NCBI RefSeq assembly: GCF_008360935.1
Contig: NZ_SRXO01000001.1
Span: 186,001-250,000, forward strand
Length of the DNA: 64,000 bases
Direction of reading: 5' to 3'
Source: Siccirubricoccus phaeus
GTDB lineage: Bacteria > Pseudomonadota > Alphaproteobacteria > Acetobacterales > Acetobacteraceae
Under the pieces are notes generated by a model that did no database searches, had not been told where the DNA came from, and was given only the letters and a program-made list of their open reading frames with translations. Position numbers and translations under genes: made by a program. This document shows, in pieces, positions 18,260 through 39,005 of the stretch. Within the stretch, counting starts at the first letter, position 1; the number at the start of each line of letters is the position of its first letter.

Positions 18260-19486
18260 ATGGGTGAATGGTCTGTTGCGCGCCGCCTTCTCCTGGGGGG
18301 AGCCGCCGCGACCCTGGCGTTGCCGCGCCTCGGCCGCGCCCAGGGGGGGGGCGCCGGGGGGCCGATCCGCATCGGCGAGATCAACTCCTACTCCTCCCAG
18401 CCCGCCTTCCTGCAGCCCTACCGCAATGCCTGGACCCTGGCGGCGGAGCAGGTGAATGCCGCGGGCGGCATCAAGGGCCGGCCGCTGGAGACGCTGCACC
18501 GCGACGATGCCGGCAAGCCGGAGGACGCCGTGCGCCTGGCGGGCGAGCTGGTGAATGCCGAGCGGGTGGCGCTGCTCTCCGGCGGGTTCCTCTCCAATGT
18601 CGGCCTCGCCATCGCGGATTTCGCCAACCAGAACAAGCGGCTCTTCGTGGCGTCGGAGCCGCTGACGGATGCCATCGTCTGGGGTCGCGGCAACGCCTAT
18701 ACCTTCCGGCTGCGCGCCAGCACCTACATGCAATCCGCCATGCTGGTGGAGGAGGCGGCGAAGCTGCCGGCGAAGCGCTGGGCGACGGTCGCGCCGAATT
18801 ACGAATACGGCCAATCCGCCGTGCGCTGGTTCAAGGAGCTGCTGACGCGGGCGAAGCCGGATGTGCAATTCGTCGCGGAGCAATTCCCGGCGCTCGGCCG
18901 CATCGATGCCGGTGCCACAGTGCAGGCGCTGGCGGCGGCGAATCCGGAAGCGATCTTCAACGTCACCTTCGGCGCCGACCTGACCAATTTCGTCCGCCAA
19001 GGCGCGACGCGCGGGCTGTTCGAGCGGCGGAGCGTCGTCTCCCTGCTGACCGGCGAGCCGGAATATCTCGACCCGCTGCAGGATGAGGCGCCGGAGGGCT
19101 GGATCGTCACCGGCTACCCCTGGGAGCAGATCAACACGCCGGAACACGCCGCCTTCCGCGAGGCCTATCGGCGCCGGTTCAACGACTACCCGCGGCTCGG
19201 CAGCGTGGTGGGCTACGACACGGTGATGGCGATCGCCGCCATGCTGAAGAAGGCGAGCGCGGTGGAGACCGAGCCGATGGTGGCGGCGATGAAGGGGCTG
19301 CAATTCCAATCGGTGTTCGGCCCGGTGGAATTCCGCGCCGTCGACCACCAATCCACCATGGGCGCCTTCGTCGGCCGCACCGTGCTGCGCAACGGCAAGG
19401 GCACCATGGCGGAGTGGCGCTACGCCGACGGCAAGAACTACCTACCGTCGGATGAGGTGGTGCGGACGCTGCGGCCCCAAGGCTGA
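18260..19486 (+). CDS. ABC transporter substrate-binding protein, branched-chain amino acid (LivJ) type
   Basis: This 408-residue periplasmic receptor feeds the fused permease and two ATPases that follow. The leader has a twin-arginine-like ARRLLLGGAAATLALPRLGRAQ, so export may be by Tat. The mature protein begins IRIGEINSYSSQPAFLQPYR and has the type-I periplasmic fold signature AAEQVNAAGGIKGRPLE, followed by the ligand-cleft loop LSGGFLSNVGLA. Its position directly after dicarboxyl-CoA beta-oxidation genes suggests a carboxylate or acyl ligand rather than an amino acid; that is inference. Confidence 0.92.
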   Translation: MGEWSVARRLLLGGAAATLALPRLGRAQGGGAGGPIRIGEINSYSSQPAFLQPYRNAWTLAAEQVNAAGGIKGRPLETLHRDDAGKPEDAVRLAGELVNAERVALLSGGFLSNVGLAIADFANQNKRLFVASEPLTDAIVWGRGNAYTFRLRASTYMQSAMLVEEAAKLPAKRWATVAPNYEYGQSAVRWFKELLTRAKPDVQFVAEQFPALGRIDAGATVQALAAANPEAIFNVTFGADLTNFVRQGATRGLFERRSVVSLLTGEPEYLDPLQDEAPEGWIVTGYPWEQINTPEHAAFREAYRRRFNDYPRLGSVVGYDTVMAIAAMLKKASAVETEPMVAAMKGLQFQSVFGPVEFRAVDHQSTMGAFVGRTVLRNGKGTMAEWRYADGKNYLPSDEVVRTLRPQG

Positions 19487-21345
19487 TCGAGGCCACTCTG
19501 CTCGAGAATCTGATCCTCCAGGCGCTGAGCGGCCTGGCAAGCGCGTCCTCGCTCTTCCTGGTGGCGTCGGGGCTGACGGTGATCTTCGGCGTCAGCCGGA
19601 TCGTCAATTTCGCGCATGGCTCCTTCTACATGCTGGGCGCCTACCTGGCCTGGACGCTGGTGACCAGCCTGCCGCGCGGGCATCTCGGCTTCTGGGGCGG
19701 GGTGCTGGGTGCCGCGCTGCTGGTGGGCGTCATCGGGCTGGTGGTGGAGATGCTGCTGCTGCGACGCATCTACCGGGCGCCGGAGCTGTTCCAGCTGCTC
19801 GCCACCTTCGGGGTGGTGCTGGTGGTGCAGGATGTGGCGCTGCTCACCTGGGGGGCGCAGGATCTGCTGGGGCCGCGGGCACCGGGATTGCGGGGCAGCA
19901 CGGAGATCCTGGGGCTGCGCTTCCCGCTCTATGAGCTGTTCCTGATCGTGGTCGGGCCGGTGGTGCTGGGGCTGCTGCTGCTGCTGTTCCACCGCACCCG
20001 CTGGGGCACGCTGGTGCGGGCGGCGACGCAAGACCGGGAAATGGTGGGGGCGCTGGGGGTGAACCAGCGGATGCTGTTCACCTCGGTGTTCTTCCTCGGC
20101 TCCGTGCTGGCGGGGCTGGGCGGGGCGCTGCAGCTGCCGCGGGAGAGCGTGAACCTGCACATGGACCTCGCCATCATCACCGAGGCCTTCGTGGTGGTGG
20201 TGGTGGGCGGGCTCGGCAGCCTTTCCGGCGCGGCGCTGGCGGCGCTGCTGATCGGGGAGCTGCATGCCTTCGGCATCCTGGTCTTCCCGAAGATCACCCT
20301 GGTGCTGGTCTTCCTGGTGATGGCGGTGGTGCTGGTGGTGCGGCCGCATGGGCTGCGCGGCAAGCCGCAGCCCGCGGCGCACGGGGTGGCGGCGGCGGAA
20401 CCGATGATCGGCGCGGCGCCGCGCGCGCTGAAGCTGGCGGGGGCGGTGGGGCTGGCGCTGGCGGTGGCGCTGCCGCCCTTCCTCGGCGATTACGCGCTGA
20501 CGGTGCTGACGGAGATCGCCATCTGCATCCTGTTCGCCGCCTCGCTGCACCTCATCATGGGGCCGGGGGGCATGGCGAGCTTCGGCCATGCCGCCTATTT
20601 CGGCCTCGGCGCCTATGGTGCTGCGCTGGCGGCGACCTGGCTGGGCGTGCCGATGCTGGGGGGGATGCTGCTGGCGCCGGTGCTGGCGGGCATCTTCGGC
20701 GTGGTGTTCGGCTGGTTCTGCGTGCGGCTCTCCGGCGTCTATTCCGCCATGCTGACCCTGGCCTTCGCGCAGATCGCCTGGTCCGTCGCCTTCCAATGGG
20801 TGGAGGTGACGGGGGGCGACAACGGCATTCTTGGAGTTTGGCCGGATGCCTGGGCGGCGGGGAAGCTGACCTATTACTACCTGGCGCTGGCGCTGTGCCT
20901 GGGTGGCACCTTGCTGCTGCGGCGGGTGGTACACGCGCCTTTCGGCTATGCGCTGCGGGCGCAAAGGGACAGTGCGCTGCGGGCGGAGGCGATCGGGATC
21001 GACGCCTTCCGCATCCGCTGGTGGGGATTCACTTTGGCGGCCGTCGCGGCGGGGGTGGCAGGCGGGCTGTTCGCCTATGGCAAGGGCAGCGTCTTTCCCA
21101 CCTACCTCGCCATTCCGCGCAGCGTGGATGCCCTGCTGATGGTGCTGCTGGGCGGGGTGCAGACGCTGACGGGGCCGATCATCGGCGCCATCGCCTATAC
21201 CGGGTTGCAGGAACAGCTCATGCGGCTGCTGGAGTATTGGCGGCTGGTGCTGGGGGCGGTGATCATCCTGCTGGTGCTGTTCTTCCCCCAGGGGCTGGCC
21301 GGCGCGGCGCGCGCGATGTGGGAGCGGCGCCATGGCGACGCTTGA
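19483..21345 (+). CDS. Fused branched-chain-type ABC permease LivH-LivM
   Basis: Two permeases are joined in one 620-residue chain. Residues about 1-300 are LivH-like (GLTVIFGVSRIVNFAHGSFYM; VVVVGGLGSLSGAALAALL). A linker at about 300-325 leads into the LivM-like half (LHLIMGPGGMASFGHAAYFG; VLLGGVQTLTGPIIGA). No ATG, GTG or TTG precedes the first transmembrane segment: the first is GTG at 19561, which would remove 26 conserved residues. The frame is open from 19456, and CTG at 19483 overlaps the receptor stop as CTGA and would give the typical start (M)IEATLLENLILQALSG. I therefore propose CTG initiation by coupling. Confidence 0.85.
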   Translation: MIEATLLENLILQALSGLASASSLFLVASGLTVIFGVSRIVNFAHGSFYMLGAYLAWTLVTSLPRGHLGFWGGVLGAALLVGVIGLVVEMLLLRRIYRAPELFQLLATFGVVLVVQDVALLTWGAQDLLGPRAPGLRGSTEILGLRFPLYELFLIVVGPVVLGLLLLLFHRTRWGTLVRAATQDREMVGALGVNQRMLFTSVFFLGSVLAGLGGALQLPRESVNLHMDLAIITEAFVVVVVGGLGSLSGAALAALLIGELHAFGILVFPKITLVLVFLVMAVVLVVRPHGLRGKPQPAAHGVAAAEPMIGAAPRALKLAGAVGLALAVALPPFLGDYALTVLTEIAICILFAASLHLIMGPGGMASFGHAAYFGLGAYGAALAATWLGVPMLGGMLLAPVLAGIFGVVFGWFCVRLSGVYSAMLTLAFAQIAWSVAFQWVEVTGGDNGILGVWPDAWAAGKLTYYYLALALCLGGTLLLRRVVHAPFGYALRAQRDSALRAEAIGIDAFRIRWWGFTLAAVAAGVAGGLFAYGKGSVFPTYLAIPRSVDALLMVLLGGVQTLTGPIIGAIAYTGLQEQLMRLLEYWRLVLGAVIILLVLFFPQGLAGAARAMWERRHGDA

Positions 21346-22087
21346 GGTGGAGGGCATCCAGAAAAGCTTCGGCGGCGTGCAGGCGGTGCGGGGCGTCTCC
21401 TTCGCCGTCGAGCCCGGCGAGATGCTGGCGCTGATCGGGCCGAACGGCGCCGGCAAATCCACCTGCTTCAACATGCTGAACGGGCAACTGCAGCCGGATG
21501 CCGGGCGGGTGCGGCTGAAGGGGCGGGACATCACCGGGCTGAAGCCGCGGCAGGTCTGGCGCCTCGGCGTGGGGCGGACCTTCCAGGTCACCGCCACCTT
21601 CGGCTCCATGACGGTGCGGGAGAATGTGCAGATGGCGCTGCTCTCCCACCATCATCGCCTCGGCCAGCTCTGGCGGCCGGTGGCGCGGATGGATGCGGCG
21701 GAGGCGGAGGCGCTGCTGGCGCGGCTCGGCATGGCGGGGCAGGCGGGGCGGCCCTGCGGGATTCTCGCCTATGGCGATTTGAAGCGGGTGGAGCTGGCGA
21801 TCGCGCTGGCCAACCAGCCCGCCCTGCTGCTGATGGATGAGCCGACGGCGGGGATGGCGCCGCAGGAGCGGGTCTCGCTGATGGCGCTGACGGCGGAGAT
21901 CGCGCGGGAGAGGGGGATCGCCGTGCTGTTCACCGAGCACGACATGGATGTGGTGTTCAGCCATGCCGACCGCATCCTGGTGCTGGACCGCGGCGCGCTG
22001 ATCGCCGAGGGCGCGCCGCAGGCGGTGCGCAACGATCCGCGGGTGCGGGAGGTCTATCTCGGCTCCGGCGCCACCTCGGGGCACTGA
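21332..22087 (+). CDS. livG: ABC transporter ATP-binding protein, LivG type
   Basis: One of two ATPases energising the importer. Walker A is GPNGAGKST, Walker B is LLLMDEPTAGMAPQE, and the signature region is AYGDLKRVELAIAL in place of LSGGQ, a known trait of LivG proteins. The 251-residue product has a full C-terminal LivG tail with VLDRGALIAEGAP. The start overlaps the permease gene by 14 bases. Together with the next gene it completes a five-component importer encoded by four genes. Confidence 0.95.
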   Translation: MATLEVEGIQKSFGGVQAVRGVSFAVEPGEMLALIGPNGAGKSTCFNMLNGQLQPDAGRVRLKGRDITGLKPRQVWRLGVGRTFQVTATFGSMTVRENVQMALLSHHHRLGQLWRPVARMDAAEAEALLARLGMAGQAGRPCGILAYGDLKRVELAIALANQPALLLMDEPTAGMAPQERVSLMALTAEIARERGIAVLFTEHDMDVVFSHADRILVLDRGALIAEGAPQAVRNDPRVREVYLGSGATSGH

Positions 22088-22089
22088 CG

Positions 22090-22791
22090 ATGCTGCGCGT
22101 TTCTGGCCTCTCCGCCCATTACGGCCGCGCCCATATCCTGGAGGATGTGGCGCTGGAAGTGGCGGCGGGAGAGGTGGTGGTGCTGCTCGGCCGCAACGGC
22201 GCGGGCAAGAGCACGACGATGAAGGCGATCATGGGTCTGGTGCCGTCCAGCGCCGGGCGGGTGGAATTCGACGGGGCGGAAATCACCGGGCGGGAGCCGT
22301 TCGAGATCGCGCGGCGCGGCCTGGGCTATGTGCCAGAGGAACGGCGCATCTTCACCGAGCTGACGGTGCTGGAGAATCTGGAGGTGGGACGACGGCCAGC
22401 GATGGCGGGCCAGGCGCCCTGGACGCCGGCGCGGCTGTTCGAGCTGTTCCCGAGCCTTGGCCGGATGCAGGACCGGGCCGGCGGGCGGATGAGCGGCGGC
22501 GAGCAGCAGATGCTGACCATCGCCCGCACCCTGATGGGCAACCCCCGCCTGATCCTGCTGGACGAGCCGAGCGAGGGGCTGGCGCCGGTGGTGGTGGAGC
22601 GGATGGCGGAGGCGATCGTCACGCTGAAGGCGAGCGGGCTGGGCATCCTGCTCTCGGAGCAGAACCTCCATTTCGCGCGCGGGGTAAGCGACCGGGCGAC
22701 GATCATCGAAAAGGGACGGATCCGGTGGAGCGGAACGATCCCGGCGCTGCTGGAGGCGGAGGAGGTGCGGGAGCAATACCTTTCGGTGTGA
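22090..22791 (+). CDS. livF: ABC transporter ATP-binding protein, LivF type
   Basis: The second ATPase of the importer. Walker A is GRNGAGKST, the signature motif is MSGGEQQML, and Walker B is LILLDEPSEGLAPVVVE. The 233-residue length and the end VREQYLSV are typical of LivF. It starts two bases after the livG stop. It is the last gene of the operon; a 546-base non-coding region rich in palindromes follows. Confidence 0.95.
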   Translation: MLRVSGLSAHYGRAHILEDVALEVAAGEVVVLLGRNGAGKSTTMKAIMGLVPSSAGRVEFDGAEITGREPFEIARRGLGYVPEERRIFTELTVLENLEVGRRPAMAGQAPWTPARLFELFPSLGRMQDRAGGRMSGGEQQMLTIARTLMGNPRLILLDEPSEGLAPVVVERMAEAIVTLKASGLGILLSEQNLHFARGVSDRATIIEKGRIRWSGTIPALLEAEEVREQYLSV

Positions 22792-23786: not shown

Positions 23787-23826
23787 AACTCAAGGGTTCC
23801 AAGGGCCTTTCGGCCCTTGGCGGGGA
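23787..23826. terminator. Terminator-like hairpin at the 3' end of the UPF0280 gene
   Basis: CCAAGGGCC (23799-23807), TTTC and GGCCCTTGG (23812-23820) form a perfect 9-bp stem preceded by AAACTCAAGGGTT. It belongs to the same family as 5321-5358 and 63362-63403. Here the stem lies within the last codons of the UPF0280 reading frame: the residues PRQGPKGPWNP are encoded by it. Confidence 0.55.
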
Positions 23827-24686
23827 GAGTTTGAGAGGGGCAGCGCCCCTCTCAAGACCTCGCCGACGACTCGCACCTCCTCCCCGATGGCGAGCATCGC
23901 CGCCACGATCAGCCCGCGCTGCACCAGGCGTTCGGCCATCGCCTCGCCGGAGTCCAGCGCCGCGGCCACGACGTCTTCGGGCAGCGCGCCGACCTCCACC
24001 GTCACCGGCAGCTCGCCCAAATCGCTGTCCGGGTCCAGGCTCACCGCCGGGGCGCGGCGGATGGCGGGGTGTTCGGCATTCACCGCGTTGGCGATCACCG
24101 TCGCCGCCGCATCGGCCTGCGCCGCCTGCGCCGCCAGCACCGCCACCGCATCGGCGATGCCGAGCGAGAAGCTCCGTCCCGGCCAGCCGCTGGTGGCGAT
24201 GCCGCGCACCGGGTCCGCGGCGGTGAGGCGCACCAAGCCGCCCGGCACCGCCTCCTCCAGCCGGCGCACCAGGCCGACGCGCAGGGTCTCGCCGGGCGCG
24301 AGGAAGACCGCGATGTCGCCGCCATTGTTCACATGCGCGGTGGCGAGGCCCGGTACCGTGGTGATGGCGGCCAGCACCTCCTCCGCCACCGCGCCCGCCA
24401 CCGCCGCCATGGGGGTGATGAAGCCGGTGCGGTAGGGCCAGCAGGCTTCCAGCATCCGTCGTGCCACGCGGCCACGCAGCGGCGGCGGATCGGCGCCGAG
24501 CGGTGTGCGGAGCAGGGGCAGCTCCGCCACCAGCCCGGCGAGCAACCCGTCGAAGGCCCGGGCGGCGCGGCGGTGCGCCTCGGCCATGGCGGCGCGGGTG
24601 CCTTCCACGCCGATCACCAGGTCGATCGGGCCCTCCTGCAGATGCAGGCGGCCATCGGGGAGGAAGGCGCTTACGGCACCGGCCAC
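23790..24686 (-). CDS. UPF0280 family protein, ApbE-like
   Basis: This 298-residue protein has ApbE (flavin transferase) fold hallmarks. HVNNGGDIAVFL corresponds to the NxGGD motif, GIATSGWPGRSFSLG to the ATSG motif, and ADAAATVIANAVN to the ADALATA helix. UPF0280 has no assigned function. The GTG at 24686 lies in the last codons of the preceding reductase gene (16-base overlap), so the two are translationally coupled. That coupling suggests a dedicated maturation role: covalent flavin attachment to the reductase is my hypothesis. The C-terminal tail after EVLRG (about 15 residues) is encoded by a terminator-like repeat and is probably not conserved. Confidence 0.85.
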   Translation of the reverse strand: MAGAVSAFLPDGRLHLQEGPIDLVIGVEGTRAAMAEAHRRAARAFDGLLAGLVAELPLLRTPLGADPPPLRGRVARRMLEACWPYRTGFITPMAAVAGAVAEEVLAAITTVPGLATAHVNNGGDIAVFLAPGETLRVGLVRRLEEAVPGGLVRLTAADPVRGIATSGWPGRSFSLGIADAVAVLAAQAAQADAAATVIANAVNAEHPAIRRAPAVSLDPDSDLGELPVTVEVGALPEDVVAAALDSGEAMAERLVQRGLIVAAMLAIGEEVRVVGEVLRGALPLSNSPRQGPKGPWNP

Positions 24687-26230
24687 TGGTTCTCCGCCTG
24701 CCAGGGTTCGTGCCGGGCGGTGGCGCCATAGGCGGCCAGCACCTCGCGCAGCGGCAGCGCATGGGCGACATGGCCGCCGAGCCTGGCGTAGCGCTCGGCA
24801 TCGAGGGTGAATTCGATGGGCGCGACCAGCGCCGGGGTCGGGACGTAGCCGAAGGCGCCTTCGGGCACCTTCAGGACATCCGCCATGATGGTGATGCCGC
24901 CGCCGGGCCAGAGCGTCGCGGGCGCGCCGCCGATGGTGACGCGGACCAGCGATTGCTGCACGGCGCGCGTCAGCAATATGGGGTTCTCGGTGACGCCGGC
25001 GCGGAGGCTGCCGCCGGCGCCGGCCATGAAGAGGATGGAGGTCAGCGCCGGCTCGCAATTCTCGCCGATGCGCTCGACGGTTTGCAGCACCTCGGGCGGG
25101 GTCGGCGCCGGCACCGGGCGGAGATTCTCGTCGAGTTCCAGGTACAGATGGTCCTCGCCCGTGGTGCTGGTGAGCAGGAGGCGGAGACCGGGCCAGGCAG
25201 TCTTCCGGTCGATGCTCTCGATGATGGCGAGCGGGTCGGTGATATCCGTCCCGCCCCAGCCGGTGCCGGGATGCGCCACCTGGAAGTAGCGGCCGGGCGT
25301 GGAGCGGCGGCCGCGCACGCGGATGCCGGCGGGCTGGATGTTCAGGCATTTGCCGGCCTGGTGCTCCGACAGCACGCCGGTGATGTGGTCGTCCACCACG
25401 ATCACCTCATCCACATGGCCGTGCCATTGCTGGGCGAAGATGCCGATGGTGGCGCTGCCGCAGCCGACGCGCATCCGCGCCTCCGGCACGCCGTTCACGA
25501 TGGGGGCGGCGCCGGCCTGCAGCACGAGTTTCGCGCCGCCGTCGATGGTGACCTCGACGGGCTGCTTCTCGCACAGCGCCAGCATGGCGGCGCAGGTGAC
25601 GTTGCCTTCCTTCTTGCTGCCGCCGGTGAGGTGGCGGACGCCGCCGAGGGAGAGCATCTGGCTGCCATACTCGGCGGTGGTGACATGGCCGATCTGCTCG
25701 CCATCGACGCGCACGGCGGCGGTCTCGGCGCCGAGATGGCGGTCGGTGTCGATCTTCACCTTCAGCCCGCAATAGCTGAAGATGCCCTCGGTCACGACGG
25801 TGACGGTATCGACGCCGTCATGCCGGCTGCTGACGATGAAGGGCGCCGGCTTGTAGTCCGGATAGGTGGTGCCGGCGCCGATGGCGGTGACGAAGGTGTC
25901 GCGCTCGGCGAGGAAGGGGACGGTCTGGCCGCCTTCCTCCAGCGTGCGTTCCAGCAGCACCAGGGGATCGACGCGGATGAGCGCGCCCTCCTGGTTCGCG
26001 TAGCGGCTGCAGGCGCCGCTGCGGCCGGGGCGGATGCGGCAGAGGACGGGGCAGGCATCGCAGCGGACGATGCCCTCATTGCCCTCGCGGGCGCCGAAGA
26101 TGGTCGTGCGGTCCTGTGCGGCGGAGGTGGCCATGCGGTTGCTGCTGGCGGCATCCGCCATGCGGTCCGGCGTCGTGGCCTCATCCATGGCGCGGGGTAC
26201 GCCGGCATTCGACTCGCGGTCCATGCTCAT
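24671..26230 (-). CDS. hnr: 6-hydroxynicotinate reductase-like iron-sulphur flavoprotein
   Basis: Resembles 6-hydroxynicotinate reductase (Hnr) of Eubacterium barkeri, which reduces 6-hydroxynicotinate to 1,4,5,6-tetrahydro-6-oxonicotinate. The 519-residue product has an N-terminal Fe-S ligand set CDACPVLC plus C74 (Cys57, 60, 64, 74). A Gly/Thr turn IGAGTTYPDY follows near 117-126, then VEVTIDGGAKLVLQAG and the Cys-containing VGCGSATIGIF. The first 45 residues look like a non-conserved extension. The start overlaps the molybdoenzyme stop as ATGA. Family naming rests on memory of Hnr and on the gene neighbourhood, because enamidase lies 4 kb away. The exact substrate is uncertain. Confidence 0.8.
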   Translation of the reverse strand: MSMDRESNAGVPRAMDEATTPDRMADAASSNRMATSAAQDRTTIFGAREGNEGIVRCDACPVLCRIRPGRSGACSRYANQEGALIRVDPLVLLERTLEEGGQTVPFLAERDTFVTAIGAGTTYPDYKPAPFIVSSRHDGVDTVTVVTEGIFSYCGLKVKIDTDRHLGAETAAVRVDGEQIGHVTTAEYGSQMLSLGGVRHLTGGSKKEGNVTCAAMLALCEKQPVEVTIDGGAKLVLQAGAAPIVNGVPEARMRVGCGSATIGIFAQQWHGHVDEVIVVDDHITGVLSEHQAGKCLNIQPAGIRVRGRRSTPGRYFQVAHPGTGWGGTDITDPLAIIESIDRKTAWPGLRLLLTSTTGEDHLYLELDENLRPVPAPTPPEVLQTVERIGENCEPALTSILFMAGAGGSLRAGVTENPILLTRAVQQSLVRVTIGGAPATLWPGGGITIMADVLKVPEGAFGYVPTPALVAPIEFTLDAERYARLGGHVAHALPLREVLAAYGATARHEPWQAENQWPVP

Positions 26231-28944
26231 CGCCGCGCCTCCCGGATCGCCGCCAGCACGCGGTGGGGCAGGGCAGGCGCCCGGGTGATCCAGGCGCCGG
26301 TCGCGTGGTTGATGGCGGAGAAGATGGCCGGCGCGGTCGGCACCAGGGCCGGCTCGCCGATGCCCTTGGCACCGAAGGGGCCGAGCGGCTCGCGGTCCTC
26401 GATCAGCAGGCACTCGATCGCCGGCACGTCGCCCACCGTCGGGATCAGGTAGTCGTGCAGATTCTCGGTGCGGCCGGGGAGGTATTCCTCCATCAGGGCA
26501 AGGCCGATGCCCTGGGCGATGCCGCCATGGATCTGCCCCTCCACCATGGTGGGGTTGATGGTGCGGCCGACATCATGGGCGGCGACAATGCGTTCCAGAT
26601 GCACGGTGCCGAGCTCCATATCGACCGAGAGCGCGGCGAGTTGCGCGGCGAAGCCATAGGTGGCGTAGGGCACGCCCTGGCCATCGGCGTCGAGCGGCAC
26701 GGTCGGCGGGTCGAAGCGGCCGATGCCTTCCAGCGGCGCCTCCAGCGGCAGGGGGCGGCCATCCACATGCAGGATGCCGTCGCGGAGGTCCAGCTTCGCA
26801 TCCTCGCCGGCATTGGCGCGCAGCAGGATCTGCCGGCGCAGCGCCAGCGCGGCGTCCTGCGCGGCGCGGCCGCTGACGAAGGTCTGGCGGCTGGCGCTGG
26901 TCTTGCCGGCGTCGAAGGTCAGGTCGGTGTCGTAGAGGACGAGGTGGATGTCTCTGGGCGGCAGGCCCAGCGCCTCCGCCAAGATCTGCAGCAGGATGGT
27001 GGTGCTGCCCTGGCCGATATCGACGGCGCCATTGTGGAAGGTGACGCCCTCCGGACCCAGCGTGACCCGCATGGTGGAGGGGTTGGACATGCCGGTATTG
27101 CCGATGCCGTACCACATGCAGGCGATCCCGACGCCATGCCGGCGCGAGCCGCCACCGGCGTTGCGGGAAGCGGCCGCGTCGCGCAGGGCGTGCCAGCGGG
27201 GGCGCAGCGCCTCCAGGCAGGCGACCAGCCCGACCGAATGGGTCAGCACCTGGCCGCTCGCCGTGGCATCCCCGGCGCGCAGCGCGTTGCGGAGGCGGAA
27301 TTCCAGCCGGTCGAGTCCGGCGGCATCGGCGAGGCGGTCCCAGAGCGCTTCCTGGGCGATGGCGGCCTGGGGCACGCCGAAGCCGCGGAAGGCGCCCGAG
27401 GGCGGCTGGTGGGTGAGGATGGCGCGCGCCCGGGTGGCGACGGCCGGCACGCGATAGGGGCCCATGGCCTGCACCGGCACGCGGCCGGCGACGGTCGGGC
27501 CCCAACTCGCATAGGCGCCGGTGTCGTAGAGCCCCTCGAAGGCGAAACCGGTCAGGCGCCCCTCGGCGTCGCAGCCGGCGCGGGCGGCGATGCGGGCGGG
27601 GTGGCGCTTGGTGCTGCTGGCCATGCTTTCCGGGCGCGACCAGACGGCGCGCACCGGCCGGCGCAACAGCCAGGCGGCCACCGCCAGCATGGGCTGCACC
27701 GAGACATCCAGCTTGCCGCCGAAGCCGCCGCCACAGGCGGAGGGGATGATGCGCACGCGGTCCTGCGGGATGCCCAGTACCCCGGCGACCTCGTCCAGGT
27801 CCATATAGGGGGCCTGGGTGGTGGCGAAGACCTCGATCCTGTCCGATGCCTCGGGCCCGCCGCCCTCCGGGCGGACCATCTGCGCCCAGCCGGCTTCCGG
27901 CTCGATATAGGCGTGCTCGACGAAGCTGGTCTCGTACTCGCCCGCGGCGGTGAAGGCGCTGGCGGCCAGCGCCGCCTCGGCATCCCCGGCGCGGAGGCGG
28001 CCGGTGGCGAGGACATTCTCCGCCCAGCGGTCATGCAGCAGCGGGCCGGCGAGGGCGGCCGAAGGGTCGGTGAGGGCGGGCAGCACCTCCCAGGTGAGGG
28101 GCAGCTCCTCGAACCGCACCGCCTCCACCGCTTCGCGGCTGCCGACCAGGGCGGCGATGCAGTCGCCGCGATAGCGGACCAGGCCGTCGCAGAAGACCGG
28201 CTGGTCCTTGATGTCCGGATAGACGCCGAAGCCGTTGCGGCCGGGGATGTCGGCGGCGGTCAGCACCCGCTCCAGCCCGGGGTGGCGGGCGAGCAGGGGG
28301 GCGCAATCGCCGAGGGTGAAGCGGGCATGGGCGTGCGGGCTGCGGATCGGCTTCAGCCAGAGCGCATCGGAAGGCGCCGCATCCGCGCCGAAGAGGGCGG
28401 TGCCGGTGACGCGGGCGGGGCCGTCCACCCGCGGCAGGCGCTCGCCCACCGCACCGGCGGAGGACGGCGCCTCGGCCTCGCGGAAGAGATGCGCGGCCTG
28501 GATCGCCTCCAGGATCTTGCGGTAGCCGGTGCAGCGGCAGAGCACGCCGCCGATGGCGTCCATGGCCGCGCCTTCATCGGGCTGCGGCGAGGCGCGCAGC
28601 AGGGGCAGGGCGGCCATCAGCATGCCGGGGGTGCAGATGCCGCATTGCGCCGCGCCATGCGCCAGGAAGGCGCGCTGCAGCGCGGCGCCCCAGGGGTCGG
28701 CGGCCAGGCCTTCCACCGTCTCCACCGCCTGGCCGGCGGCCTGGGCCAGCGGGACGAGGCAGGCGCAGGCGGGCGCCCCGGCGAGCAGCACGGTGCAGGC
28801 GCCGCAATCGCCGGCATCGCAGCCGACCTTGGTGCCGGTGAGGCCAAGCTCCTCCCGCAGCACGGCGGTGAGGCGCTGGTCCGGCGGCGCCACCACCGCA
28901 TGGGGGGCGCCGTTGACCGTCAGGGCGAAGGGCGGGGCGCTCAT
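26227..28944 (-). CDS. Molybdenum hydroxylase, fused [2Fe-2S] and molybdopterin-binding subunit (xanthine dehydrogenase family)
   Basis: Hydroxylates an N-heterocycle or aldehyde using water-derived oxygen. Residues 1-150 are the ferredoxin-like subunit: Cys42, 47, 50, 62 bind one [2Fe-2S] cluster and Cys101, 104, 136, 138 (CGIC and CRCTGY) the other. From about 160 the molybdopterin domain begins, with ACGGGFGGKLDVSV and, close to the end, the catalytic Glu in GAKGIGEPALVP. The product is 905 residues; small and large subunits are usually separate genes, so this is a fusion. The FAD subunit gene lies upstream and overlaps as ATGA. Context suggests 6-hydroxylation of nicotinate or a related pyridine; that is inference. 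Confidence 0.9.
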   Translation of the reverse strand: MSAPPFALTVNGAPHAVVAPPDQRLTAVLREELGLTGTKVGCDAGDCGACTVLLAGAPACACLVPLAQAAGQAVETVEGLAADPWGAALQRAFLAHGAAQCGICTPGMLMAALPLLRASPQPDEGAAMDAIGGVLCRCTGYRKILEAIQAAHLFREAEAPSSAGAVGERLPRVDGPARVTGTALFGADAAPSDALWLKPIRSPHAHARFTLGDCAPLLARHPGLERVLTAADIPGRNGFGVYPDIKDQPVFCDGLVRYRGDCIAALVGSREAVEAVRFEELPLTWEVLPALTDPSAALAGPLLHDRWAENVLATGRLRAGDAEAALAASAFTAAGEYETSFVEHAYIEPEAGWAQMVRPEGGGPEASDRIEVFATTQAPYMDLDEVAGVLGIPQDRVRIIPSACGGGFGGKLDVSVQPMLAVAAWLLRRPVRAVWSRPESMASSTKRHPARIAARAGCDAEGRLTGFAFEGLYDTGAYASWGPTVAGRVPVQAMGPYRVPAVATRARAILTHQPPSGAFRGFGVPQAAIAQEALWDRLADAAGLDRLEFRLRNALRAGDATASGQVLTHSVGLVACLEALRPRWHALRDAAASRNAGGGSRRHGVGIACMWYGIGNTGMSNPSTMRVTLGPEGVTFHNGAVDIGQGSTTILLQILAEALGLPPRDIHLVLYDTDLTFDAGKTSASRQTFVSGRAAQDAALALRRQILLRANAGEDAKLDLRDGILHVDGRPLPLEAPLEGIGRFDPPTVPLDADGQGVPYATYGFAAQLAALSVDMELGTVHLERIVAAHDVGRTINPTMVEGQIHGGIAQGIGLALMEEYLPGRTENLHDYLIPTVGDVPAIECLLIEDREPLGPFGAKGIGEPALVPTAPAIFSAINHATGAWITRAPALPHRVLAAIREARR

Positions 28945-29819
28945 GCCGCTTGGCTCCCCCCTTGGGCCTGCGGGGCGGCGAGGCCGGCCAGCAGCCGGCG
29001 CAGCAGCACCAGGGCGGCGTGGCGGCGGTACTCGGCGGTGGCGCGGACGTCGTCGATGGGGGAGAGGGGGGCGAGGTGCTCGGGGGCGGCCAGAGCGGCG
29101 GCCTCCTCCGGCCTGGCGCCGATGAGCGCGGCCTCCAGCTCCGGCAGGCGCTGCGCCACGGGCGAGCAGGCGCCGATGGCGAGGCGGGCGGCGGCGATGC
29201 GGCCCGAGTCGATCTCCAGCAGCCCGGCGACCATGGCGATGGAAATGACGAGGTAGGACCGCGCGCCAAGCTTGAGGAAGGCGCTGCGCGTCTCGCCTGC
29301 AGGTTTCGGCACCAGGATCGCGGTGGCGATCTCATCCGGCGCCAGGGCGGTGCGGCGGTTGCCGAGGATGAACGCCCCGAGCGGCAGGCGCCGCGTGCCG
29401 CGCCGGCTGGCCAGCTCCACCTCGGCCTCCAGGGTGAGCAGCGGCGGCACGCCATCCGCGGCCGGGGAGGCGTTGCAGAGATTGCCTAGCACTGTCCCCC
29501 GCGCCTGCACCTGCACCCCGCCGACCTGTCGCGCCGCCTGGCGCAGCCCGTCGAACCAGGGGGGCAGGGGGGCGTCGCGCAGCGCCGCCCAGGTCACGCC
29601 GGCGCCGATGCGGTGGTGGTCGCCCCGGTCCTCGATGCCGGCGAGGCCGAGGCCGGACAGGTCCAGCACCGGGCGCGGCGCGTAGCGTCCCCAGGCCTCC
29701 GCCACGGCGCGGGCGGGATAGACATCCGTTCCCCCGGCCAGCAGCAGCGGCGCTTCCGGCGCGCCGGCCAGCAGGGACAAGGCCTCAGCGAGACTTGCGG
29801 GTTTGCGGTCGCCGCTCAT
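28941..29819 (-). CDS. Molybdenum hydroxylase FAD-binding subunit
   Basis: The 292-residue middle subunit (CoxM type) passes electrons from the [2Fe-2S] clusters to an acceptor. FAD-binding motifs are LLLAGGTDVYPARAVAE near the N-terminus and the TVLGNLCNASPAADGVP loop. The C-terminal CO dehydrogenase flavoprotein domain follows, ending in a short Ala/Gln tail. The ATG at 29819 has a GGCAGGAG site 5 bases upstream and is preferred over a TTG at 29831. It is the first gene of the minus-strand catabolic operon (FAD subunit, Fe-S/Mo subunit, reductase, UPF0280), all with short overlaps. Confidence 0.92.
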   Translation of the reverse strand: MSGDRKPASLAEALSLLAGAPEAPLLLAGGTDVYPARAVAEAWGRYAPRPVLDLSGLGLAGIEDRGDHHRIGAGVTWAALRDAPLPPWFDGLRQAARQVGGVQVQARGTVLGNLCNASPAADGVPPLLTLEAEVELASRRGTRRLPLGAFILGNRRTALAPDEIATAILVPKPAGETRSAFLKLGARSYLVISIAMVAGLLEIDSGRIAAARLAIGACSPVAQRLPELEAALIGARPEEAAALAAPEHLAPLSPIDDVRATAEYRRHAALVLLRRLLAGLAAPQAQGGSQAA

Positions 29820-29883
29820 GGCTCCTGCCAATCGTTTGCAGGATAACGAGCTTAGCCAGCCCTGGTTTGCGGCTCAACCGAAA

Positions 29884-30315
29884 TCAGGTGAGATCGCGCA
29901 ACAAGCGTGCCAGCCGCGCCGCATCGGAAGGCGAGAGCGGCGCCAGGGTGGCGGCGGTGATGGCCTTGGCCTTGGCCACCCAGCCGGGCAGCGCCGCCTC
30001 CGCCGCCGGCGTCAGCGCCACCAGCAGCAGGCGGGCATCGCCGGGGTCCTTCTGCCGCACCACCAGGCCGCGGGCCATCAGCCGGGTGACCACCCCTTTC
30101 ACGGTGGGCGGGTCCATGGCCAGCATGCGGCCGAGCAGATTCTGCGAGAGCGGGCCGCGCTGCGACAGGGTGACGAGGGTGGCGAATTGCATGGAGGTCG
30201 GCCCATCCTCCCCCATGATGCCCTGGAACAGCGCGAGATGCCGCTGATAGGCGCGGCGGAGCAGATGCCCCACCTGCGCCTCCAACGCGTAATCGCTCGG
30301 GTCCCCGTCGCTCAT
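29884..30315 (-). CDS. MarR family transcriptional regulator
   Basis: A 143-residue winged-helix dimeric regulator. The recognition part is GPLSQNLLGRMLAMDPPTVKGVVTRL, with the wing GLVVRQKDPGDARLLLVALT. It lies 64 bases upstream of the molybdenum hydroxylase genes on the same strand and divergent from the enamidase gene. It is well placed to repress both arms in response to a pathway substrate, as the MarR-type NicR does for 6-hydroxynicotinate in Pseudomonas. An imperfect dyad ATCGTTTGCAGGAT (29830-29843), between this gene and the FAD subunit start, is a possible operator. Confidence 0.9.
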   Translation of the reverse strand: MSDGDPSDYALEAQVGHLLRRAYQRHLALFQGIMGEDGPTSMQFATLVTLSQRGPLSQNLLGRMLAMDPPTVKGVVTRLMARGLVVRQKDPGDARLLLVALTPAAEAALPGWVAKAKAITAATLAPLSPSDAARLARLLRDLT

Positions 30316-30480
30316 TCGCCATTTCTAGGCTTATGATCCGGGCTGGGCTAGGCTGGTGGTGATACCGGCGCCCGCAGGGCCGGCCGGTATCGCGCGCAGG
30401 CGCGCCCTCTGCCGTGGCTTCGCCTTGGATGGGCCGCGGAGTGGCGCGCGCGTGAGACCTGTATGGGGAGAGATGACGCG

Positions 30481-31680
30481 ATGGCGTTGGAGGCGGCGAC
30501 GGGGCCCGCGAAGGGCCGCACCCTGGTGCGCAATATCGGCCTGCTGCTCTCCGGCGACCTGGCCGCGCCGGTGCTGGCGGCGGAGGCGATCCTGGTCGAG
30601 GACGGGAAGATCGCCGCCCTCGGCAGCGTCGCGGAGCTGAAGGACCGCGGCCCCTTCACCGGGGAGATCGACGCGCATGGCTGCGCCGTCTCGCCCGGGC
30701 TGGTGGACAGCCATGTGCATCCGGTGGTGGGCGACTGGACGCCGCGGCAGAACCAGATCGGCTGGGTGGAGAGTTTTCTCAATGGCGGCGTGACCACCAT
30801 GATCTCGGCCGGCGAGGTGCATTCGCCGGGGCGGCCGCGCGACATCACCGGGCTGAAGGCGCATGCCATCTTCGCCCAGCGCAGTTTTTTCAACATGCGC
30901 CCCGCGGGGGTGAAGGTGCTGGCGGGGGCGCCGGTGCTGGAGAAGGGCATGGTCGAATCGGACTTTTCCGAATTGGCCGCGGCCGGCGTGACCTTGCTGG
31001 GCGAGATCGGGCTCGGCTCGGTCAAGGCGGGCTACGAGGCGCGGGAGATGGTCGCCTGGGCCCGCAAGCATGGCATCCAGAGCACCATCCATACCGGCGG
31101 GCCCTCGGTGCCCGGCAGCGGCTATATCGACAAGGACACGGTGCTGGAGGCCGACGCCGACATCATCGGCCATATCAATGGCGGCCATACCAGCCTGCCG
31201 GAAGGCCATGTCTGCGAACTCTGCGAGCGGTCGAGCCGCGCCATCGAGATCGTCCATAACGGCAATGAGCGGGTGGCGATCGCGGCGGTGCAGGCGGCGC
31301 GGGACCTGGGCCAGCTTCACCGCGTCATCCTGGGCACGGACAGCCCGGCCGGCTCCGGCGTGCAGCCGCTGGGCATATTGCGGCTGATCTCGCTGCTTTC
31401 TGCGCTCGGCGGCATTCCGGCGGCGCAGGCCATCGCGCTGGCCACCGGCAACACCGCCCGCATCCGCAAGCTGGAGGCCGGGCTGATCGAGGTGGGACGG
31501 TCGGCGGACCTGGTCTTCCTCGACCGGGCGCAGCATACGGCGGGGCGCGACCTGTTGCAGAGCATCGAGCTGGGCGACATCCCGGGCATCGGCGGGGTGA
31601 TGATCGACGGCGCCATGCGCTGCTTCCGCAGCCGCAACACGCCGCCGGCGGAGCGGGTGCCCGAGGTGCTGGGGCACTGA
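30481..31680 (+). CDS. Enamidase-like amidohydrolase
   Basis: Closely resembles enamidase of Eubacterium barkeri, which hydrolyses 1,4,5,6-tetrahydro-6-oxonicotinate to 2-formylglutarate and ammonia at a binuclear metal centre. Shared stretches recalled from that protein include VRNIGLLLSGDL, GGVTTMISAGEVHSPGRP, RPAGVKVLAGAPVLEKGM and the C-terminal SRNTPPAERVPEVL. Metal ligands are apparent: His78 and His80 in DSHVH, the His of IHTGG, the His of GHINGG and the Asp of GTDSPAGSG. The 399-residue form starts at 30481 after GGGGAGAG; an ATG at 30463 is possible. It is divergent from the MarR gene, with the hydroxylase operon beyond. Confidence 0.88.
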   Translation: MALEAATGPAKGRTLVRNIGLLLSGDLAAPVLAAEAILVEDGKIAALGSVAELKDRGPFTGEIDAHGCAVSPGLVDSHVHPVVGDWTPRQNQIGWVESFLNGGVTTMISAGEVHSPGRPRDITGLKAHAIFAQRSFFNMRPAGVKVLAGAPVLEKGMVESDFSELAAAGVTLLGEIGLGSVKAGYEAREMVAWARKHGIQSTIHTGGPSVPGSGYIDKDTVLEADADIIGHINGGHTSLPEGHVCELCERSSRAIEIVHNGNERVAIAAVQAARDLGQLHRVILGTDSPAGSGVQPLGILRLISLLSALGGIPAAQAIALATGNTARIRKLEAGLIEVGRSADLVFLDRAQHTAGRDLLQSIELGDIPGIGGVMIDGAMRCFRSRNTPPAERVPEVLGH

Positions 31681-31716: not shown

Positions 31717-31780
31717 ACCCCGGGGAGATCGCAAGCCTGAAGTGGCGGCGCTGCTTCGGGCCACCAGGAGAGGGCAGGGT

Positions 31781-32827
31781 TTGACAGGCGCACCGAGCAT
31801 CCCCGCCCCCATCGCCCGCGCCCCCTGGTGGCGCCGCGGCATCCGCAACGGGCTGCTGCTCGGCGCGCTGGTGCTGCTGGCGGCGCTGGCCCTCAATTAC
31901 GATGATTTGCCGGCGCTGCGGCGCATGCTGGCGGAGGCGCCCTTCGGCATTGCCATCTCGCTCGCGGTGCATATTCCGCAGATCGGCATCACCGCCCTCG
32001 CCTGGCGGTCCCTGCTGCCGCCGGCGGAGCGGCCGCCCATCCTGGTCATGGCCAGGCTGCGCTGGTTCCGCGAATCGGCCAATGCGCTGCTGCCGGCCGG
32101 CGCCCTGGTGGGGCAGGCGGCGGCGGCCAGGCTGCTGGCGCGGCGGGGCATCGCCGGCGATAGGGCGGGGGCGACGGCGACGGTGGACCTCACCCTGGAG
32201 GCCGTCTCCCAGCTTTTCTTCACCCTGGCCGGGGTCGCCCTGCTGCTGGGGGGCGGGGAGGGGGAGGGGCTGCTGCGCTTCGCCCTGGCCGGCTTCGGCA
32301 TCGCCCTGGGTGGTGCCGCCGCCATGGTGCTGCTGCAGCGCCGCCTGCCGCTGGCCCTGCTGGAACGCGGGCTGGCGCGCCTCGCCCGGCGCTGGCCGGC
32401 GATCCAGCCCGGGGCGATCCGCGACTTCCAGGCGGCGATCCTCGCCCTGCATGCCGATTGGCCGCGGCTGGTGGCCGCCTGCCTCTGGCACAGCCTGGCC
32501 TGGCTGCTGGGGGCGGTGGAGGTGGCCGGGCTGCTCTGGCTCATGGGGCAGGACGTCACCCTGGCGGAGGCGCTGGTGATCGAAAGCCTGGCCCAGGCGT
32601 TGCGCAATGCCGGCTTCATGCTGCCGGGGGCGCTGGCGGTGCAGGAAGGCGCCATCATCGGCGCCGCCGCCCTGGTGGGGGTGCCGCCGGGCGCCGCCCT
32701 GGCCGTAGCCCTCACCCGCCGGGCGCGGGAGGTGGTGCTGAGCCTGCCCGGGCTTCTGGCTTGGCAAAGGGCGGAAATCCGGGCTACAGCGGCGGCCGAT
32801 CAGCCTGCCGCGCGGACGCCGCTATAG
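31781..32827 (+). CDS. HpnL-like flippase / lysylphosphatidylglycerol synthase TM region protein
   Basis: A 348-residue integral membrane protein with about seven to eight hydrophobic segments. Motifs of the HpnL/UPF0104 group are visible: RWFRESANALLPAGALVGQ, ATATVDLTLEAVSQLFFTL and the QALRNAGFMLPGALAVQEG box. In hopanoid producers HpnL is a predicted lipid transporter. The TTG start at 31781 is chosen because AGGAGAGGG lies 10 bases upstream and the product begins just before the first helix; an in-frame GTG at 31742 is less likely. Its place between enamidase and a DUF1185 gene is odd: there is no obvious link to heterocycle breakdown. Confidence 0.82.
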   Translation: MTGAPSIPAPIARAPWWRRGIRNGLLLGALVLLAALALNYDDLPALRRMLAEAPFGIAISLAVHIPQIGITALAWRSLLPPAERPPILVMARLRWFRESANALLPAGALVGQAAAARLLARRGIAGDRAGATATVDLTLEAVSQLFFTLAGVALLLGGGEGEGLLRFALAGFGIALGGAAAMVLLQRRLPLALLERGLARLARRWPAIQPGAIRDFQAAILALHADWPRLVAACLWHSLAWLLGAVEVAGLLWLMGQDVTLAEALVIESLAQALRNAGFMLPGALAVQEGAIIGAAALVGVPPGAALAVALTRRAREVVLSLPGLLAWQRAEIRATAAADQPAARTPL

Positions 32828-32918
32828 TTTTTCGTTGTGTCGCATTCCCCGCAATCGCCCGGCGCCGCCGGCGGGCCCGGGAATGCTCCGGGCGGTCGGG
32901 ATTGGCAGGGGGCCGGTG

Positions 32919-34025
32919 ATGGCGAGTTTCTCAGGCGCGATGGATCTGCTGCGGCTGGTGCCGAAGGGGGGACCCGCGATCTGCAACGTTTCCGTGACCA
33001 ACCTGTGCAACGCGACCTGCGATTTCTGCAATTTCGCGCATGACAAGGGCTTCGTCACCGATCGCCGCAGCCTGGATGCCAGCCGCTTTGCCGCGGGGCT
33101 GGCGCGGCTGAAGGAGCAGGCGGGGGTCCGCTTCGTCACCTTCATGGGCGGCGAGCCGCTGCTGCACAAGAACATCGTGGACATGGTCCGCACCGCGACC
33201 GAGATGGGCGTGCAGCCCACCCTGGTGACCAATGGCTGGCTGCTGCCGCCCAAGGTGGACGCCCTGGCGGATGCGGGCATCACCACCCTCTTCATCTCCA
33301 TCGACGCCCCGACCGCCGAGGTGCATGAGAAGAATCGCGGGCTGCGCGGCGTCTGCGAGCGCATCCGCGAGGCCAATGCGAGGCTGACGGCGCGGGGCGT
33401 CACCGTCATCGCCTCGGTTGCGATGACGCGCCTCGTCACGGATTACGCGGCGCTGGCGCGCTTCGTGAAGTCGCTCGGCTTCTCCGCCATCACCTTCTCC
33501 TATCCGCGCAAGGCGCAGCTCGGCTCCTCCTCCCTGGTCTGGTCGGAAGACAGCGACCTGGTGGACATGTCCCCGGCGGAGATCCTGGCGGCCTTCGACG
33601 CGGCGGAGGGCGCGCGAGAGATCATCCCGGTGCACAATCCGCGCGCCGGGCTGGCCGATATGCGCCGCCGGCTGACCGGCCAGGGCGAGCGCTTCGTCTG
33701 CCATGCCGGCTACAAGTATTTCTACCTGGACTGGAATTACGACCTGTGGCGTTGCGAGGACTGGGATAAGCCGCTCGCCTCGCTGTGGGATTTCACCGCC
33801 CGGGACATGGTGCGGGATGGCTGCCAGGCCTGCACCACGGACTGCTATCGCGATGCCAGCATCATGCTGCATTTCGCCATCGCCATCGGCGACGCCTTCG
33901 CCCGGGTGAAGGAAGGCCGGCCGGTGGCCGCCTTCAAGGCCCTGGCGGATCGCCGCAATGCCGGCTCCATCGGCGCCGTCATCGGCCATGGCACGCGGCT
34001 GAGCCGGCTGGCCGGCGCCGGCTGA
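32919..34025 (+). CDS. Radical SAM protein with C-terminal Cys-rich domain
   Basis: This 368-residue enzyme generates a 5'-deoxyadenosyl radical. The [4Fe-4S]-SAM motif is CNATCDFC (CxxxCxxC) near residue 29, followed by the GGEPLLHKN SAM-binding loop and the usual TIM-barrel core. A C-terminal region with CHAGYKYFYLDWNYDLWRCE and CQACTTDCYRD resembles a SPASM-type auxiliary cluster. It is not the HpnH hopanoid enzyme, whose motif differs. It begins 91 bases after the HpnL-like gene, so the two may form a lipid-modifying pair. The substrate is unknown. The ATG at 32919 after CAGGGGG is preferred over an ATG at 32883 and a GTG at 32835. Confidence 0.85.
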   Translation: MASFSGAMDLLRLVPKGGPAICNVSVTNLCNATCDFCNFAHDKGFVTDRRSLDASRFAAGLARLKEQAGVRFVTFMGGEPLLHKNIVDMVRTATEMGVQPTLVTNGWLLPPKVDALADAGITTLFISIDAPTAEVHEKNRGLRGVCERIREANARLTARGVTVIASVAMTRLVTDYAALARFVKSLGFSAITFSYPRKAQLGSSSLVWSEDSDLVDMSPAEILAAFDAAEGAREIIPVHNPRAGLADMRRRLTGQGERFVCHAGYKYFYLDWNYDLWRCEDWDKPLASLWDFTARDMVRDGCQACTTDCYRDASIMLHFAIAIGDAFARVKEGRPVAAFKALADRRNAGSIGAVIGHGTRLSRLAGAG

Positions 34026-34056: not shown

Positions 34057-34638
34057 ATGCCCGCCGTCATCCGCAAGCTGGTGACCCTTCTGGACGAGAC
34101 GCGGCGGGAGATGGGCCGCGACATCCCGCCCATCCGCCGCGCCATTGCCTGCGCCGTCATCGCGAACCCCTTCGCCGGCCGCTATGTCGAGGACCTCTCG
34201 GAGCTGATCGCCCAGGGCGAGGAGCTGGGGGCGCTACTCGCCGCCCGCGCCATCGCCGCCCTCGGCATCCCCGGCGAGCAGGTGCAGAGCTTCGGCAAGG
34301 CCGCGGTGGTGGGGGAGGCGGGGGAGCTGGAACACGCCGCCGCGCTGCTGCACCCGAAGATGGGCGCGCCGGTGCGCGCGGCGCTGGGCAGGGGGCCGGC
34401 GCTGATCCCCTCCGCCAAGAAATCCGGCGGGCCGGGCACGCCGGTGGATGTGCCGCTGGGGCACAAGGATGCCGCCTTCGTGCGCAGCCACTTCGACGCG
34501 ATCGAGGCACGCGTGACGGATGCGCCGCGTGCCGGGGAGATCCTGCTCTGCCTGGCGCTGACCACGGGCGGGCGGCCATTGCCGCGCATCGGCGGCCTCA
34601 CCGTCGCGGAGATCGAGGGCAAGGACGGGTTGCGCTGA
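34057..34638 (+). CDS. Amino acid synthesis family protein (DUF1185)
   Basis: This 193-residue protein matches the DUF1185 / AA_synth family in its opening RKLVTLLDETRREMGRDIPP and the segment IANPFAGRYVEDLSELI. The central Gly/Lys-rich GKAAVVGEAGELEHAAALLHPK and the SAKKSGGPGTPVDVPLGHKDAAF loop (about residues 120-145) fit the family. Biochemical function is unproven. The family recurs next to amidohydrolases and ABC importers in heterocycle-degradation neighbourhoods, as here, so a role in handling the ring-opened product is plausible but inferred. Ribosome site: GGGGGGAGAAAGAGAG just before the ATG. Confidence 0.82.
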   Translation: MPAVIRKLVTLLDETRREMGRDIPPIRRAIACAVIANPFAGRYVEDLSELIAQGEELGALLAARAIAALGIPGEQVQSFGKAAVVGEAGELEHAAALLHPKMGAPVRAALGRGPALIPSAKKSGGPGTPVDVPLGHKDAAFVRSHFDAIEARVTDAPRAGEILLCLALTTGGRPLPRIGGLTVAEIEGKDGLR

Positions 34639-34883: not shown

Positions 34884-35658
34884 GTGCAAGACACCATTCT
34901 GGAAACCGAAGGGCTGACCAAGGAGTTCCGGGGCTTCGTCGCGGTCAGCGACGTGTCCCTGAAGATCCGCCGCGGCAGCATCCATGGGCTGATCGGGCCG
35001 AACGGCGCCGGCAAGACCACCTGCTTCAACCTGCTGACGAAATTCCTGCAGCCGACGCGCGGCAGCATTCGCTATGACGGGCGCGACATCACCGGGATGA
35101 AGCCGGCGGAAGTCGCCCGGCTCGGCCTGGTGCGCAGCTTCCAGATCTCCGCCGTCTTCCCGCATCTCTCGGTGCTGGAGAATGTGCGCGTCGCGCTGCA
35201 GCGGGACCGCGGTGGCAGCTTCGATTTCTGGCGCTCCGATTCCCTGCTGCGGAAATATGACGACCGGGCGATGGCGCTGCTCGAGGATGTCGGCCTCACC
35301 GGCTATGCCGGCCTGACGGCGGGCGAGCTGCCCTATGGCCGCAAGCGGGCGCTGGAGATCGCGACGACGCTGGCCCTCGACCCCGTCATGCTGCTGCTGG
35401 ACGAGCCGACGGCCGGCATGACGCATGAGGATGTGGACCGCATCGTGGCGCTGGTGAAGCGCGTTTCCTCCGGGCGTACCGTGCTGCTGGTGGAGCACAA
35501 TTTGAAGGTGGTCTCCGGCCTCTGCGACACCATCACCGTGCTGGCGCGCGGCAGCGTGCTCGCGGAAGGCGATTATGCGAGCGTCGCCCGCAACCCGGAT
35601 GTCATCGCCGCCTATCTCGGCTCCGAAGCCCATACCGCGACCGAGGGAGTGGCCGTCC

Positions 35659-35666: not shown

Positions 35667-36414
<748 letters not shown>

Positions 36415-36463
36415 GAAGAACGACCGACCGCGCGAAGACGCGGCGGCGATGGAGGGCTCTGGG

Positions 36464-37699: not shown

Positions 37700-37755
37700 G
37701 GATGGAAGGGCCGGGCAGCAAGCACCGGCCCCCGATAATTGGGGGACAGTTCGAG

Positions 37756-38985: not shown

Positions 38986-39005
38986 GACTGCGAGAGGAAA
39001 GCCTC

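Follow-up and report, generated by a model that had tools for sequence, protein, structure and literature searches.

A COG2122 protein as the probable dedicated partner of 6-hydroxynicotinate reductase in a nicotinate-type gene cluster of Siccirubricoccus phaeus

Gene content of the locus and pairing of COG2122 with Hnr

We analyzed a stretch of 64,000 nucleotides (nt) from Siccirubricoccus phaeus (NZ_SRXO01000001.1, 186,001-250,000), referred to here as the window, whose positions are used throughout. It carries a cluster that, judged from sequence, is probably a regulated unit by which nicotinate is catabolized reductively; within it, a protein of family COG2122 (UPF0280) would serve as a dedicated maturation factor for Hnr, a 6-hydroxynicotinate reductase-like iron-sulfur (Fe-S) protein. 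The pathway itself is already in the literature; what is new is COG2122 as a proposed dedicated partner. The features are as follows, with lengths in amino acids (aa) and with Mo and FAD standing for molybdenum and flavin adenine dinucleotide.

18260..22791, plus strand: LivK/HM/G/F genes of a branched-chain amino acid (BCAA)-type ATP-binding cassette (ABC) transporter, putatively for nicotinate
18260-19486, plus strand: binding protein of this transporter (Peripla_BP_6 match)
19561-21345, plus strand: fused permease of this transporter (read from its translation)
21332-22087 and 22090-22791, plus strand: two ATPases of this transporter (read from their translations)
23790..24686, minus strand: COG2122/UPF0280 protein, 298 aa, GTG start chosen; proposed Hnr maturation factor, ApbE superfamily
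24671..26230, minus strand: Hnr, 6-hydroxynicotinate reductase-like Fe-S protein, 519 aa
26227..28944, minus strand: fused 2Fe-2S and molybdopterin subunit of a Mo hydroxylase, nicotinate dehydrogenase-like, 905 aa (MoCoBD_1/2, Fer2, Fer2_2)
28941..29819, minus strand: FAD subunit of the Mo hydroxylase (FAD_binding_5, CO_deh_flav_C)
29823..29843, no strand: 21-bp near-palindrome in the MarR-FAD intergenic space, a weak candidate for a MarR operator
29884..30315, minus strand: MarR-family regulator (PF01047)
30463..31680, plus strand: enamidase (amidohydrolase); proposed role, ring opening of 1,4,5,6-tetrahydro-6-oxonicotinate (match to Protein Data Bank [PDB] entry 2vun)
34057..34638, plus strand: PF06684 (AA_synth/DUF1185) protein, recurrent in the cluster (231 bits, Pfam gathering cut-off 27)

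The five genes named in an initial annotation of this DNA, encoding the Mo hydroxylase (fused Fe-S/Mo plus FAD subunits), the Hnr-like protein, the enamidase-like protein, and the MarR regulator, were all found at the places claimed; the sixth, COG2122, had gone unnamed, though the interval assigned to the cluster begins with it. On the minus strand, successive genes overlap by 4 bases (FAD/Mo and Mo/Hnr) and by 16 bases (Hnr/COG2122), the last being the 16-base overlap reported earlier. The regulator, described as divergent, is so only with respect to the enamidase gene; it lies upstream of the FAD gene and is co-oriented with the operon. GC content at the cluster is 0.69-0.75, and the window-wide range is 0.67-0.76.

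In the species-genome collection, no fewer than 589 stretches encode an Hnr relative. Counts for named loci refer to the best 80 of these (L030-L109), many of which are cut by contig ends, with the resulting gaps scored as absences. Window genes with homologues in these 80 loci were COG2122 (80), the Mo subunit (70), the FAD subunit (64), PF06684 (60), LivF1 (41), LivG1 (39), MarR (39), LivHM1 (38), LivK1 (33), and enamidase (19). Among 14 Hnr stretches of related genomes, several on contigs that end early, 12 carried COG2122, 11 the Mo subunit (>50% identity), and 9 the FAD subunit (>45%). The recurrence of the grouping is more than chance. By Hnr, the nearest named relatives among the matches listed were Roseicella aerolata (84%) and Paracraurococcus ruber (83%), both Roseomonadaceae of the Acetobacterales. 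The earlier proposal of one functional unit thus holds on gene overlaps and recurrence, but the unit is wider than was proposed, as the ABC transporter, PF06684, and COG2122 recur too.

COG2122 and Hnr occupied the same genomes. Whole-genome searches of 40 relatives recovered Hnr in 15 and COG2122 in 15, an identical set. Across 398 Pseudomonadota, a sample that shares at least the window's genome with the first, there were 34 Hnr and 33 COG2122 matches; after three chance-level hits were dropped (G041 and G380 for Hnr, G331 for COG2122; expect values [E] of 7e-4 to 9e-4 over 31-70 positions), both families were found in the same 32 genomes. In all 80 named loci, COG2122 was on the same strand as Hnr; the two were no more than 200 bases apart in 65 of them and no more than 700 apart in 78. 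Two of the 14 stretches lacked COG2122: one was from G008, where both genes are present on different contigs, and the other was a contig-end Hnr copy in G004, where COG2122 is on another contig. Together, these data support the dedication of COG2122 to Hnr, and the matching genome sets suggest that it helps to build Hnr; we are fairly confident in proposing it as a maturation factor dedicated to Hnr. Some features of the data temper this view. In the two phylum searches, no more than 3 or 6 candidates were scored for each genome, the genomes are interrelated and so not independent, and the Hnr/COG2122 distance correlation (0.57) was no better than that of Hnr with the Mo subunit (0.58).

One-to-one co-occurrence and gene overlap would also fit a model in which COG2122 does not mature the reductase but is one of its stable subunits; alternatively, it might be an enzyme that acts on an intermediate of the pathway. 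We consider such roles improbable. The two genes are on different contigs in G008, a finding that a subunit could still accommodate, and the same family is needed in another pathway: passages of Price 2018 (PMC5764234) describe COG2122 acting with DUF39 (PF01837) in homocysteine synthesis. The family is the same there and here, but the partner in that system is DUF39, whereas here it is Hnr. Homology between DUF39 and Hnr was considered and is not supported, as 13 Hnr proteins compared with Pfam at E up to 1 gave no PF01837 match. DUF39 was detected in 0/20 relatives and 0/398 Pseudomonadota, which left no sequences for a profile comparison of DUF39 with Hnr.

Predicted pathway and its substrate

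In the proposed route, the ABC transporter would import nicotinate, and the FAD and Fe-S/Mo proteins would, by homology, convert it to 6-hydroxynicotinate. Hnr, likewise by homology, would then yield 1,4,5,6-tetrahydro-6-oxonicotinate, and the enamidase, a close homologue of a solved enzyme, would open the ring to give 2-formylglutarate and ammonia. Later conversion would be expected to proceed via glutarate, as the literature has it for Azorhizobium. COG2122, encoded with Hnr, would act as its dedicated maturation factor, flavin attachment being the favored chemistry.

The enamidase aligned over residues 19-403 with the solved Eubacterium barkeri enamidase 2vun (E 1.4e-107). Its H-x-H, Glu, His, His, and Asp motif residues (H84, H86, E181, H210, H237, and D293) are identical in that alignment, a favorable outcome for the metal-ligand comparison proposed in the initial annotation; we take these residues to be the binuclear metal ligands. 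For the Mo protein, which matched many Mo hydroxylases, the highest summed PDB score among the rows listed, a rough yardstick, came from chains A, B, and D of E. barkeri nicotinate dehydrogenase 3hrd (262+203+126 bits, sum 591). The best single chain was aldehyde oxidoreductase 1dgj at 369 bits, and 4-hydroxybenzoyl-CoA reductase scored 277+131 bits. Motifs that presumably mark its Fe-S and molybdenum cofactor sites were located in the sequence. The Fe-S and Mo parts form one chain here, whereas the E. barkeri enzyme has three chains in 3hrd. The E. barkeri nicotinate fermentation cluster, said to have been described by Alhapel in 2006, reportedly encodes nicotinate dehydrogenase, Hnr, and enamidase types, as does the window.

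For Hnr, 26 plasmid relatives with 59-69% identity were inspected: 17 are annotated as 6-hydroxynicotinate reductase, 3 as hypothetical proteins, and 6 have no annotated gene at that place. In the Hnr alignment, which comprised the window protein and 85 of 93 less redundant rows (150 full-length in all), Cys residues 57, 60, 64, 74, 154, 213, 257, and 392 were at least 97% conserved across the 86 rows. The predicted model (predicted local distance difference test score [pLDDT] 86.3, predicted template modeling score 0.83) matched no PDB structure at E <= 0.001; the best value was 0.017, with a probability of 0.08. A relation of Hnr to GCV_T_C was rejected as too weak: 12/13 members matched (best E 0.00018), and the window protein scored 18.6 bits, below the cut-off of 25.9. 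Separately, the Hnr frame on contig 1 of G055 (L155, near 700) is seemingly split and looks like a one-base frameshift.

The cluster is already known as a kind, since it was published in Shettigar 2012 (PMC3511419), and it is common; this host is one more example. Passages of that paper place the same cluster type in Azorhizobium, Bradyrhizobium, R. palustris HaA2, and Bradyrhizobiaceae SG-6C, whereas the present host belongs to the Acetobacterales. They describe nicotinate degradation by SG-6C with transient 6-hydroxynicotinate, expect a route via glutarate, and name a 'putative nicotinate ABC transporter'; two further genes of the published cluster are presumably COG2122 and PF06684. The downstream glutarate-type route guessed at in the initial annotation agrees, on literature grounds, with this expectation. 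PMC8473912 contained nothing on nicotinate.

The same logic of hydroxylation, reduction, and ring opening might serve another pyridine carboxylate or a pyrimidine. Membership of the Mo hydroxylase family says little about substrate, the Mo and FAD proteins here fall below every NCBIfam cut-off, and 10/80 Hnr loci have no Mo-subunit match in the stretch, some through contig ends. Such a substrate nevertheless seems improbable to us, because nicotinate enzymes of E. barkeri are matched by the enamidase as well as by the Mo protein, and because SG-6C, which carries the published cluster, degrades nicotinate and 6-hydroxynicotinate, according to the passages cited. The matches to 2vun and the 3hrd chains, the plasmid annotations, and the published cluster support the nicotinate-type reductive route first suggested for this DNA.

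Fold and candidate chemistry of the COG2122 protein

The window protein belongs to COG2122 by curated score (NF003322, 366 bits; cut-off 290) and by profile match to a solved member, PDB 2o34 (E 4.7e-11), which is DVU1097 of D. vulgaris; Price 2018 (PMC5764234) deals with the same family. Its predicted model (pLDDT 94.0) matched 2o34 and then 22 chains of ApbE, FmnB, and Ftp at E <= 0.001. The best ApbE-type chain was 7esb (E 1.2e-5, probability 1.00, TM 0.48/0.46), and TM ranged from 0.32 to 0.48 over the chains. Against a profile built from six ApbE proteins (6 of 12 loci), COG2122 aligned (probability 96%, pairwise E 2.5e-9) across 94 columns that include the NxGGDI, ATSG, and ADAxAT stretches; the first half is not covered. 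The reference ApbE site consists of conserved Ser241, His257, and Asp285 (Vibrio numbering). In an alignment of the window protein with 86 of 112 rows (146 in all), the corresponding Ser166 and Asp192 were kept in 87/87 rows. COG2122 therefore resembles the ApbE/FmnB flavin transferases in fold, in these three stretches, and in its invariant Ser and Asp. Pfam did not place it with them: the window protein had no Pfam match at E <= 0.1, let alone one to ApbE over the cut-off, and a COG2122 gene in G197 (contig 18, 859752-859979) reached 20.5 bits on the Pfam ApbE model, for which the cut-off is 25.6.

Canonical ApbE over the cut-off was absent from 10/15 and 12/32 Hnr genomes in the two samples. 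Canonical ApbE therefore cannot be what flavinylates Hnr in general, and something else must serve Hnr if a covalent flavin is general. We tentatively propose that COG2122/UPF0280 may be a second, cytosolic flavin transferase of the ApbE superfamily that lacks the ApbE His, uses a new acceptor site, and installs the covalent flavin of Hnr; archaeal and Desulfovibrio relatives would act likewise on the DUF39 homocysteine synthase. This chemistry is held much less firmly than the maturation role itself.

Several observations speak against flavin transfer or the premises on which it is built. The covalent flavin is one that E. barkeri Hnr reportedly carries, and the eight conserved Cys residues of Hnr are fewer than the three clusters of the E. 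barkeri enzyme would need. Unlike ApbE and FmnB, COG2122 does not keep the catalytic His: 15/87 rows had any His between ATSG and ADA, and no column was 97% His, the best being His15 (91%), far from the place of the ApbE His. On the acceptor side, the ApbE target motif D-x-x-[S/T]-G-A-[S/T] occurred in 0/86 Hnr rows, and the loose form [ST]G[AS][ST] in 6/86. Canonical ApbE was also present in 5/15 and 20/32 Hnr genomes, the window's own included (281 bits). Finally, a different role, persulfide modification, has been proposed for COG2122 by Rauch and colleagues, as quoted in a passage of Price 2018 (PMC5764234).

That proposal, together with the missing ApbE histidine and the make-up of the known COG2122 partner pathway, which uses DUF39 and NIL/ferredoxin proteins, would favor a role in sulfur or persulfide delivery, or in Fe-S cluster building on Hnr, with an ApbE-like fold reused and no flavin attached. 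We regard this as rather unlikely: the ApbE-site Ser and Asp are invariant, the three conserved stretches align with ApbE, and no COG2122 column is 97% Cys. Flavin transfer stays our tentative choice of chemistry. The literature passages on the family contained no assignment of its chemistry.

Exchange of ring-opening enzymes, accessory genes, and significance

The window locus is of the enamidase kind. Among the 80 Hnr loci, 19 had an enamidase gene, 31 or 32 (by threshold) had HyuA/HyuB (PF01968, PF05378, and PF02538), and 0 had both; L050, L051, L058, L097, and L100 are examples of HyuA/HyuB loci. Where HyuAB was present (31 loci), its genes shared the strand of Hnr, and the closer of them was at most 6.7 kb from Hnr. 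When only the 47 loci with more than 9 kb on both sides were considered, 14 had enamidase, 24 HyuAB, 0 both, and 9 neither; the chance of zero overlap is 2.4e-6 under independence of loci, which does not hold. On an Hnr tree of 81 rows, the ring-opening state changed at least 6 times, compared with a mean of 16.2 and a minimum of 11 in 200 shuffles, and so follows the tree yet has switched repeatedly. A test on independent pairs was not significant (3 supported pairs, 2 or 3 as expected, p >= 0.25). Strong enamidase matches (>450 bits) were found in 12/15 Hnr genomes and 0/25 others among the 40 relatives. Overall, this pattern suggests that HyuAB may replace enamidase and that the two may be interchangeable ring-opening modules.

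PF06684 was found in 15/15 Hnr genomes and 2/25 others among the 40 relatives, and in 31/32 Hnr genomes and 28/366 others among the 398 Pseudomonadota. Copies near Hnr fell into two ranges of identity to the window protein, 41-50% and 55-89%, with some loci holding one of each; the window's genome has a single copy. Away from Hnr, PF06684 adjoins an enamidase gene in G007, G017, and G024. The literature describes the family as having a chorismate-mutase-like fold, with function unknown, and as encoded beside BCAA-type transporters (PMC2954203). It also reports that, when trigonelline is broken down, oxidation of a semialdehyde is stimulated by TgnF, a homologue, no such effect being visible for the PF06684 protein studied in that same work (PMC7913881). 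We suggest that the PF06684 protein may handle 2-formylglutarate or a semialdehyde derived from it.

The 21-bp near-palindrome has 9-nt arms that are 89% complementary. When 15 loci were searched with up to 5 mismatches, a copy in the equivalent place was found only in the same-genus L017, and one copy lay elsewhere in L031. Between the enamidase and PF06684 genes (31742-34025), the window encodes an LPG_synthase_TM protein and a radical SAM protein; both were near Hnr only in L017 among the 14 stretches and in L031 among the 80 loci, several contigs being short. Further along, a second ABC transporter gene set (34884-43456) has three Peripla_BP_6 binding proteins, with ATPases and permeases recognized by translation. 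At 45173-47679, the window encodes a flavin monooxygenase-like protein and, after it, a PF04199 cyclase, perhaps another catabolic unit.

As a cluster, the locus only extends a published pathway to one more host, and the useful part is the COG2122 link. The exchange of enamidase for HyuAB suggests that the lactam may be opened by two unrelated enzymes, one of an ATP-dependent type. For COG2122, the pairing offers a functional link for a family that has had a released structure since 2006 and, according to passages of PMC5764234, has a genetic phenotype. Since the Fe-S reductase with which it pairs one to one has a known reaction, a clean assay is at hand, and the role proposed for COG2122 could explain how aerobes build a ring reductase that was first described in an anaerobe.

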